Source of the DNA: Nitrospirota bacterium
Lineage (GTDB): Bacteria; Nitrospirota; Nitrospiria; Nitrospirales; Nitrospiraceae
Reading direction: 5' to 3'
Assembly: GCA_026387665.1 (NCBI GenBank)
Contig: JAPLLG010000005.1
Span: forward strand, 62,001 to 126,000
DNA: 64,000 nt
The notes under the pieces were generated by a model. That model searched no databases. It saw only the letters and a list, made by a program, of their open reading frames with translations, and had not been told where the DNA came from. A program made the translations under genes and the position numbers. This document shows, in pieces, positions 13,851 to 38,911 of the stretch (positions within the stretch are counted from its first letter, which is position 1; every line of letters starts with the position of its first letter).

Positions 13851-13977
13851 GCAGGATGCTCAAAAAGTTCGTCCAGCAAGGCCGCAGCCGACGAACACAC
13901 CGGAGGCGTAGCCTCTGGCTACGTTGAGGATGCGTTCAAAGCGAGAACGAAGCTGGCGGACTGTTTCAGCATCCTGC
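13851..13977. repeat. 126-bp inverted-repeat element, copy A
   Basis: Starts GCAGGATGCTCAAAAAG and ends CTGTTTCAGCATCCTGC; the two ends are about 26-bp imperfect inverted repeats. The inside contains CCAGCAAGGCCGCAG, TACGTTGAGGAT and GAGAACGA, shared with copies at 23420, 38786 (inverted) and 58028. Its right end is 3 nt from the recN stop codon. Confidence 0.88.
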
Positions 13978-22883: not shown

Positions 22884-22918
22884 ACGTTTCACGTCGTACG
22901 TTTTACGTCTCACGCCTC
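22884..22918. repeat. Five degenerate 7-bp repeats between moaE and moaA
   Basis: acgtttc, acgtcgt, acgtttt, acgtctc, acgcctc in exact 7-bp register. The inverse matches the array at 631-718. The array ends at the moaE stop codon. Confidence 0.7.
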
Positions 22919-23370
22919 TAGGGGTGTTCCTCCACCCAGACTTCGCCTTCCGGCGTATGCTCGAGTTTCCAGATCGGCGTGATCTGTTTCAATTCGTCGA
23001 TCGCCCACTTGCAGGCTTGAAAGGCCGACGCCCGGTGCTCAGCCCCCACCACGATCAGCACGATATTTTCACCGATGCCGATTTCGCCATAGCGGTGCAA
23101 GATTGCGACTTCGATGATGTCGAAATCCTTCAGCGCCCGCTCACGGATCTCGCGGAGCTTCTTCTGCGCCATGCCTTCGTAATGTTCGAAGGTGATGCTG
23201 TCCACATCCCGCCCCTTGGAGCGGTCACGCGCCGTCCCCAGGAAAATCGAAATCCCGCCGATGCGCTTTGAACTCCCCCGCACCCGGTTGATCTCCGCAT
23301 CCACGGAAAAATCTTCCCGCTGCACACGGACAAACTGGGTATCGTCACTGAGAGGCTGCTGTGCGCTCAT
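22918..23370 (-). CDS. moaE: Molybdopterin synthase catalytic subunit
   Basis: A 150-residue MoaE with the conserved GGISIFLGTARDRSKG, HYEGMAQKKLREI, ILHRYGEIGIGE, HRASAFQACKWAIDELKQITPIWK motifs; the Lys of the last segments is catalytic. MoaE forms a heterotetramer with MoaD and transfers sulfur from the MoaD thiocarboxylate to precursor Z to make molybdopterin. It is separated from moaD by a 126-bp-family repeat (copy B), unusual for two genes whose products work in 1:1 ratio. Confidence 0.95.
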   Translation of the reverse strand: MSAQQPLSDDTQFVRVQREDFSVDAEINRVRGSSKRIGGISIFLGTARDRSKGRDVDSITFEHYEGMAQKKLREIRERALKDFDIIEVAILHRYGEIGIGENIVLIVVGAEHRASAFQACKWAIDELKQITPIWKLEHTPEGEVWVEEHP

Positions 23371-23419
23371 CCTTATTCCTCTTACCTAACGTAGTCCACT
23401 ACCACTGAGTACGTGCTCA

Positions 23420-23587
23420 GCAGGATGTTCAAACAGGCCAGCTTCTCACCCTCCCAACCCTGGCGCGCCGAGACGCGCCTTGTCCCCAGCAAGGCCGCAG
23501 CTAGCGAAGAGGCGAGGCGTACGTTTCGGTACGTTGAGCCTCTGAGCGACGCGAGAACGATGCTGGCGGACTGTTTCAACATCCTGC
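23420..23587. repeat. 126-bp-family inverted-repeat element, copy B (with ~40 bp extra)
   Basis: Starts GCAGGATGTTCAAACAG and ends CTGTTTCAACATCCTGC. Between them lie CCAGCAAGGCCGCAG, TACGTTGAG and CGAGAACGATGCTGGCGG, as in copy A, plus about 40 bp extra near the left end. Its right end covers the moaD stop codon and the last four codons. Confidence 0.88.
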
Positions 23588-23842
23588 CGGAGCTCCCCCT
23601 GCAAACGGTGGCAACAATGCAATCTCGTCACCATCCTGAATCGTCGTCTCTTCGTGGGCGATGTCATGATTGACCGATACGAGGACCTTCTTCTTCTGAA
23701 TCAACTCGCCGATCTGCGGATATTGAGCCGTCAACAGCGCCACCAGATCCTTCACCTGCCGCGCCCCGTTCAGTTCCAGCGACAGTTCGCTGAGATTCTT
23801 GGCAAGCGACTTGGTCATGCCGAAGAGGCGAACGGTAATCAT
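23576..23842 (-). CDS. moaD: Molybdopterin synthase sulfur carrier subunit, C-terminally extended
   Basis: An 88-residue beta-grasp protein: MITVRLFGMTKSLA, QVKDLVALLTAQYPQIGEL, VSVNHDIAHEETTIQDGDEIALLPPFAGG. MoaD is adenylated and thiocarboxylated on its C-terminal Gly-Gly, so the GG must be the last residues. Here five residues, APAGC, follow the GG. The codons GCA GGA TGT TGA are the terminal bases of repeat copy B, so the repeat apparently replaced the native stop. The protein may need trimming by a protease, or it may be inactive with a second copy elsewhere. It follows moaC by 6 nt. Confidence 0.92.
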   Translation of the reverse strand: MITVRLFGMTKSLAKNLSELSLELNGARQVKDLVALLTAQYPQIGELIQKKKVLVSVNHDIAHEETTIQDGDEIALLPPFAGGAPAGC

Positions 23843-23848
23843 AGATGG

Positions 23849-24340
23849 CTAGGCCTTAGTAAAGGTGCCGGACTTGCCGCCCGACTTGGCCAGCAAGCAA
23901 ATATCGCCAAAGCTCATCCCGCGATCGATGGCCTTGCACATATCGTAGATGGTCAGGGCCGCCACGGTGGCAGCGGTCATCGCTTCCATCTCAACCCCGG
24001 TTTGCCCGGTCGTCTTGGCCGTGGCCAGAATGGTGATCGAACAGAGACCGTCGTGATTCGGCTGGGATTCTTCTCTGAAGGAGATATCGACGCTGGTGAT
24101 CAGCAGCGGATGGCACATGGGAATGAGATCCGGGGTCCTCTTGGCCCCCATCACGCCCGCGACCTGCGCGACGGACAAGACGTCGCCCTTGGCGATCTTG
24201 CCCTGCTGAATCTTTTCGAGGGTTTCGGGAAGGAGAAAGACAGTGGCTTGAGCCGTGGCAGCCCGTTCGGTCGAAGCTTTCGCTCCGACATCGACCATGC
24301 GCGCCCGGCCTGATTCATTGAAATGCGTAAATTCTGCCAT
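23849..24340 (-). CDS. moaC: Cyclic pyranopterin monophosphate synthase
   Basis: This 163-residue MoaC has MVDVGAKASTERAATA, GAKRTPDLIPMCHPLLIT, TTGQTGVEMEAMTAATVAALTIYDMCKAID and the catalytic-lysine segment LLAKSGGKSG. It converts the MoaA product to cyclic pyranopterin monophosphate. It is the first gene of the moaC-moaD-moaE-moaA run. No good Shine-Dalgarno precedes the ATG (CTGACAAA), and its upstream region holds two long palindromes (24422 and 24565). Confidence 0.96.
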   Translation of the reverse strand: MAEFTHFNESGRARMVDVGAKASTERAATAQATVFLLPETLEKIQQGKIAKGDVLSVAQVAGVMGAKRTPDLIPMCHPLLITSVDISFREESQPNHDGLCSITILATAKTTGQTGVEMEAMTAATVAALTIYDMCKAIDRGMSFGDICLLAKSGGKSGTFTKA

Positions 24341-24421
24341 TTTGTCAGCTGAATCAGCGCGTTAAGGCTCAACCCCAGGCGGGGATTATAGGGGCCGGTG
24401 GAAAGGGCAGTCAATAGAGGC

Positions 24422-24520
24422 GCAGGGCGGCCTGGATGGTCCCTTTCGCTCGCTGAACGCGCACGATAAAACCGTGCTCGTTCAATGCGCGCGGTGAGGG
24501 ACCAATCCAGGCCGCCCTGC
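24422..24520. repeat. 99-bp near-perfect palindrome (first of a pair)
   Basis: Arms GCAGGGCGGCCTGGAT... and ...ATCCAGGCCGCCCTGC pair over about 22 bp, and the centre has a second stem GAACGCGCACG / CGTGCTCGTTC around a 7-base loop. It lies in the 431-bp divergent gap between moaC (minus) and the protease gene (plus). It is not the Moco riboswitch pattern as far as I can tell. Confidence 0.85.
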
Positions 24521-24564
24521 TGAGGGGAAAGGGGGGGGAGGCTCGAACACATGGGAATGAAAAA

Positions 24565-24665
24565 GGAAGGGCGGCTCCAGTAATCCTCTGTGCTCGCGGA
24601 ACGCGCACGCTCGGAAGGTGCTCATCCGACGCGCGCAATGGAGGATCACTGGAAGCCGCCCTTCC
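24565..24665. repeat. 101-bp palindrome (second of a pair)
   Basis: Outer arms GGAAGGGCGGCTCCAGT... / ...ACTGGAAGCCGCCCTTCC. The centre shares GCTCGC.GAACGCGCACG with the first palindrome, while the outer arms differ, so the two are related elements. On the minus strand the hairpin is followed by CCTTTTTC, so it could stop transcription toward moaC. Confidence 0.85.
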
Positions 24666-24771
24666 GAGAGAGGAGTAGCGAAGCCTTCACCTTTGCAGTA
24701 GACTTGCCTACAACTGATTGCTGAGTCCGCCTTGCCGTGCTACACGGGAAGACTGCAGCGAACCTACTTAG

Positions 24772-38786: not shown

Positions 38787-38911
38787 CAGGATGCTGAAAA
38801 AGTCCGCCAGCGTCGTTCTCGGCTTATCGAAATCCTCAACGTACCCCTGAGGTACGCCTCCGAGTTCGACTCGCCTGCGGCCTTGCTGGCCATACTTTTT
38901 GAGCATCCTGC
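38786..38911. repeat. 126-bp inverted-repeat element, copy D (opposite orientation)
   Basis: Starts GCAGGATGCTGAAAAAG and ends TTTTTGAGCATCCTGC. Read on the minus strand it matches copies A and E almost base for base: CCAGCAAGGCCGCAGGCGAG, TACGTTGAGGATT, CGAGAACGACGCTGGCGG. It begins on the last base of the hpnE stop codon. Confidence 0.9.

Follow-up and report, generated by a model that had tools for sequence, protein, structure and literature searches.

MoaD needs a free C-terminal glycine for its adenylation and for thiocarboxylate formation, and a MoaD that is fused to MoaE must therefore be cut. A sulphur carrier with extra residues after its Gly-Gly (GG) is also known from the QbsE/QbsD system of the thioquinolobactin pathway, in which these residues are removed by a JAMM protein. 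Both bacteria and archaea are known to have MoaD-MoaE fusions, which one survey counted in 775 of 33,957 bacterial genomes (PMC11237513). In Mycobacterium tuberculosis, the fusion MoaX has to be cut at Gly82-Ser83 for activity (PMC4326299). In Deinococcus radiodurans, the JAMM protease DR0402 cleaves the MoaD-MoaE fusion DR2607 and exposes its terminal glycine, according to the account of Yang et al. 2018 given in PMC8832034.

A related case is found in a 64,000-nt stretch of DNA from a Nitrospirota bacterium (here the window; host genome G000), where moaC, moaD, moaE and moaA follow one another on the minus strand. As in M. tuberculosis, a single open reading frame (ORF) in relatives of the window genome encodes MoaD, GG followed by a small residue, the linker and MoaE. 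Unlike MoaX, the fusion in the window genome is split by a hairpin repeat that leaves a five-residue tail on MoaD; it belongs to another phylum and is known here from sequence. QbsE/QbsD, in turn, is a system of secondary metabolism with a fixed short tail, whereas tails in this family range from 0 to 56 residues and come from linker or repeat. The reading favoured here, with a probability of roughly 0.78, is that a MoaX-like fused synthase was split by the repeat and that the remaining tail is cut off after GG, with a JAMM enzyme as the likeliest protease. The fission is read from sequence comparison, while we infer the cleavage and the role of JAMM. The features of the locus are:

23849-24340, minus strand: moaC, the upstream cluster gene
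23576-23842, minus strand: moaD, 88 residues ending PPFAGG-APAGC-stop; Pfam ThiS, 59.5 bits (cut-off 22.5)
23594-23599, minus strand: codons of Gly82-Gly83 of MoaD, the expected thiocarboxylate end after processing
23579-23593, minus strand: MoaD tail A-P-A-G-C after GG, from codon reading and comparison with fused relatives
23576-23578, minus strand: TGA stop of moaD, from the repeat arm GGATGTTGA
23420-23587, minus strand: hairpin repeat, 168 nt, with 20-nt inverted ends that are 90% complementary; RNA hairpin z = -5.5
23371-23419, minus strand: spacer between repeat and moaE, with a Shine-Dalgarno-like AGAGGA at 23377-23382, absent from fused relatives
22918-23370, minus strand: moaE, a separate gene of 150 residues with start MSAQQPLSDDTQFV; Pfam MoaE, 123 bits
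21794-22861, minus strand: moaA, the downstream cluster gene

The tail and its repeat-derived stop are exactly as the preliminary description reported them. On the minus strand, ALLPPFAGG is followed by GCT CCG GCA GGA TGT TGA, which reads A-P-A-G-C-stop. That description assigned the last codons and the stop to the end of the repeat. These codons are A-G-C-stop (GCA GGA TGT TGA, the terminal bases of the repeat); A-P lies outside the repeat at the place of the first two linker residues in fused relatives. By this comparison, MoaD ends in two former linker residues and three repeat-encoded residues, and MoaE is predicted to be translated separately. A sequencing error at the junction is unlikely, since G137, another species of the genus, has the same junction at the same place (GG-ASAGC-stop); other genomes also carry the same repeat family there.

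The window gene belongs with MoaD both by its ubiquitin-like ThiS family and by its operon with moaA, moaC and moaE. Among solved proteins it is best matched by a bacterial MoaD, 2q5w_D, which ends at the two residues aligned to the GG of this MoaD. The TIGR01682 moaD model matches at 50 bits, below its own cut-off of 66.15. As encoded, the protein has no Gly-Gly terminus.

Supporting a fused origin, the same family offers many loci for comparison. The moaD search covered 175 genomes, of which 158 had a match, and the open frame at these matches is usually about 235-270 codons long, not 88. In the full set used for counts (152 moaD loci from 150 genomes), MoaD is fused in frame to MoaE in 112 loci (about 232 residues), including those of the closest relatives, G157 and G133. 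A repeat of the family found at the window junction lies directly after the moaD GG in 16 loci from 16 genomes, with a repeat remnant in one more; a further 21 split loci have a MoaD tail but no repeat, and MoaD ends in GG-stop only in G091 and G092. Residues follow the GG in 150 of the 152 loci, and a tailed MoaD is therefore the family norm. Tails measure 1 to 56 residues in the tailed loci and 0 in the GG-stop loci. Outside the family, fusions were found in two of 19 sister-family loci; a sample of 16 other loci, taken across the order, class and phylum, had nine.

The linker between MoaD and MoaE reads GG-CPMNQVSDETQFV in G157 and GG-CPMEPVSDETQFV in G133, and fused linkers (xPMDQVSDD) are alike across genera. 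At the window junction, GG-AP is followed by the repeat, the spacer, AGAGGA and ATG, and then by SAQQPLSDDTQFV. The PPFAGG motif on the MoaD side of the junction is invariant in all 152 loci, and the window MoaE shares 97% identity with the MoaE portion of the fusion in G157. Since MoaD and MoaE are split in the window genome, the gene is best described as a derivative of the MoaX-type fusion family and not as a fused member of it.

Other junctions in the family vary in their own ways. In G120 (L026), G123 (L024) and G146 (L047), the MoaD frame reads through the repeat and acquires 55-56-residue repeat-encoded tails after GG. Two apparent single-site switches were also seen: G038 (L054), from the split genus g14, is fused and has GAG where a sister genome has a TAG stop, and G091/G092 (L042/L046) have a linker that is one base shorter (26 against 27 nt), are split and end in GG-stop.

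Sequence comparison shows that the window gene goes back to a moaD-moaE fusion, the usual state in the family. In its linker, right behind the GG codons, there is now a copy of the genome-wide hairpin repeat, accompanied by a spacer, a ribosome-binding site and a start codon that is new. The step that cuts fusions would also remove the short tail, exposing GG for adenylation by MoeB and for sulphuration. The short tail would be tolerated because the lineage already had to cut the fused protein after GG; a lineage that does so can bear any following sequence, which fits the variable tails. The spacer and ribosome-binding site beside the repeat count against a simple repeat insertion, which does not explain them.

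A JAMM-type protease, which the preliminary description proposed looking for, is present in the host as an intact gene and is the likeliest candidate for this cut, its activity being predicted. Other ThiS/MoaD-fold proteins also occur in the genome. The genes concerned are:

G000:C2:33840-34355 (L129:6840-7355): JAMM/MPN+ protease gene; PF14464, 66 bits (cut-off 25)
G000:C8:84667-84882 (L263): ThiS-like carrier ending GG-SPRFTSPQ
G000:C12:2464-2697 (L002): second MoaD-like protein, ending GMGG-SGLGPSM

The JAMM protein has a Prok-JAB domain and an intact motif (PYECCG ... HSHPHDPARPSVTD) that follows the pattern E...HxH-x7-S-x2-D. Its gene adjoins a MoeB/ThiF gene near a CysO-like carrier ending in GG, and is not beside moaD. 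The whole cluster (G000:C2:30322-34355; L129:3322-7355) comprises two MoeB/ThiF-like genes, a threonine-synthase-like gene, the CysO-like carrier ending GG-stop, a small ORF and the JAMM gene. Family genomes resemble D. radiodurans, as far as its DR2607/DR0402 pair is described in PMC8832034, in combining a MoaD-MoaE fusion with a JAMM protease; compared with that account, the window gene is split and the candidate JAMM lies in a CysO-like/MoeB cluster. JAMM genes are present in 172 of 175 family genomes (114 of 114 good ones) and in 283 of 296 genomes of the phylum. Because the gene is near-universal, its presence does not discriminate and was discarded as a test; the GG-stop genomes G091 and G092 keep it too.

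The conserved GG, the small P1' residue and the variable tails are indirect signs of a proteolytic cut after GG. All 112 fusions have A, S, T, C, N or G directly behind GG, compared with 36% for the rest of the linkers, a contrast that is inflated by the kinship of the sequences and does not give a clean probability. The tails of ThiS-like carriers point the same way. Of 30 family genomes (L263, L264-L292), 22 have such carriers with 1-25 residues beyond ISGG, and 16 of these tails start with Ser.

The tail might instead be trimmed by a general exopeptidase or by some protease other than JAMM, which we consider unlikely, although it is the best of the alternatives. Short tails such as NR, SDGC and APAGC would be within the reach of exopeptidases, and the protease acting on M. 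tuberculosis MoaX had not been identified in 2015 (PMC4326299). However, fusions to a whole MoaE and the long repeat-encoded tails of G120, G123 and G146 need an endoproteolytic cut, which is what JAMM makes in Deinococcus in the account of PMC8832034.

Fission of a fused gene, as favoured here, also implies a direction of change. A gene tree of 171 rows was built from moaD and moaE with the linker left out, by a quick method with SH-aLRT support only. In this tree, the split G000 groups with the fused G157 and G133, the split G137 groups with the fused G154 and G153, and the GG-stop loci G091 and G092 are placed among fused relatives. In genera g1, g15 and g16, nearly all branches are fused and have similar linkers, and fusions are met again in other phylum classes; the fused state is therefore taken as the nearer ancestor of the window genome. 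Elsewhere in the family, comparison of the loci indicates that the fused or split state has changed both ways.

An improbable alternative is that the repeat-bearing split form came first and that fusions arose later by repeat loss. In its favour, the split state prevails in genus g14 and in much of the sister family f2, the repeat copies at moaDE in g1 and g16 resemble one another, and fusion by apparent stop loss is seen in G038. Against it stand the nearly uniform fused branches of g1, g15 and g16 with their matching linkers, and the recurrence of fusions in other phylum classes.

How often the fused gene was split is a separate matter. The repeat copies of G000 and G137 are closest to each other (94% identical, with a common internal segment of about 45 nt that is absent from the other listed genomic copies), and a second cluster unites the copies of G146, G120 and G123. 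Several independent insertions in g1 and g16 are not claimed on account of these resemblances. Repeat-bearing genomes are interspersed with fused ones, so the junction alleles may have moved by recombination or had few separate origins, and either seems as likely as several independent insertions.

The split synthase seems to be functional. Estimates of dN/dS are about 0.02-0.15 for both MoaD and MoaE, split-fused pairs included, which indicates that both halves are under purifying selection. Scored by a crude motif, split loci have a Shine-Dalgarno-like sequence ahead of moaE in 37 of 40 cases, and fused loci in 27 of 58. A working cofactor pathway is also to be expected from the Mo/W-oxidoreductase-type genes of the host. 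There are three of these, and a long, NxrA-like one among them has a twin-arginine-like signal.

The preliminary description had offered three ways out for the host: to trim the tail, to use another MoaD, or to lack active MoaD. It rightly held that activity requires an exposed GG, and trimming is the best supported of its three options. Selection on moaD and the host Mo-enzyme genes, including the NxrA-like one, speak against a host lacking active MoaD. A highly improbable variant is that the MoaD of the window cluster is inactive and that another MoaD-like carrier serves MoaE. Further ThiS/MoaD-fold proteins were indeed found on C12, C3, C8 and C2, but they are divergent: the C12 and C8 homologues are tailed after GG, the C3 one has no GG and the C2 one lies in the CysO-like cluster. 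The strong purifying selection on moaD and its invariant PPFAGG also argue against this variant.

Least probable of all is the view that an ordinary stand-alone MoaD lost its GG-stop to repeat insertion, with an aberrant tail peculiar to the window genome: the moaD stop and last codons are repeat bases, but GG-stop occurs in no close relative and in only two family loci, themselves among fused relatives. The claim that the repeat removed a native stop after GG must be reversed for the sampled relatives. In the nearest repeat-free ones (G157, G133, G153 and G154), the frame reads through the linker into MoaE as one ORF, so that the effect of the repeat was to place a stop within a fused gene. 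Nor are extra residues peculiar to repeat-bearing genomes, as nearly all relatives have residues after GG, with or without the repeat; in substance, this is an observation that the preliminary description had itself named as refuting its view.

MoaD-MoaE fusion and its cleavage by JAMM were already known. What is new is that nearly every locus of this family is tailed or fused, and that a repeat has recurrently split the gene at the predicted cut site. What looked like a defect becomes part of a natural series in which a single essential enzyme occurs fused, split or tailed within one family that includes nitrifiers, and this series opens the maturation of MoaD-MoaE and the specificity of the cut after GG to direct tests. 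In addition, a hairpin repeat is seen to go repeatedly with the splitting of a fused gene where a post-translational cut would make the split harmless. Annotators should not take the absence of GG-stop from a MoaD or ThiS in this group as the mark of a pseudogene. More tentatively, and at somewhat less than even odds, a GG-specific protease may free the C-termini of MoaD and ThiS-like carriers from constraint. This could let a repeat-borne "fission cassette" (repeat, spacer, ribosome-binding site and start) break up the fused synthase gene and pass from lineage to lineage by recombination, with the repeat even encoding the 55-residue MoaD tails.

The repeat itself belongs to a family with on the order of a hundred copies in the host genome. 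Its arms match 237 times (versus none for a reversed control pattern), with two arms per copy; the window has eight arm matches, against 0.09 expected, and three full copies (at 13854-13974, at 23423-23584 within the repeat of the moaD-moaE junction, and at 38789-38908). Many dispersed copies with inverted ends are typical of mobile palindromic repeats. Copies elsewhere in the genome are typically hairpins of about 118 nt with one TGA-bearing and one TCA-bearing arm. Like the REP/BIME and MITE-like palindromic repeats of bacteria, the family is short, high-copy, hairpin-forming and mostly intergenic; unlike them, it has an approximately 118-nt hairpin with asymmetric arms, and copies often abut stop codons. 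An Rfam search of the junction gave sub-threshold matches only, and comparison with fused relatives revealed no target-site duplication there. A TA target duplication was considered and set aside, since CTAG is found at the ends of some genomic copies but not at the moaDE junction.

The stop-codon context of the repeat was read at 30 loci (G000 L095-L124), with both arms found in 22. Many copies adjoin the 3' end of a gene, with the stop codon often at -5 from GGATG (TAGCAGGATG). Supplying or adjoining a stop is therefore common for this family, and the repeat may act as a gene-end or terminator element. The arms are asymmetric, and the TGA-bearing arm usually faces the 3' end of the gene. Upstream of moaC, the window also contains two long palindromic stretches (24418-24530 and 24560-24670), which by eye resemble a second hairpin repeat family.
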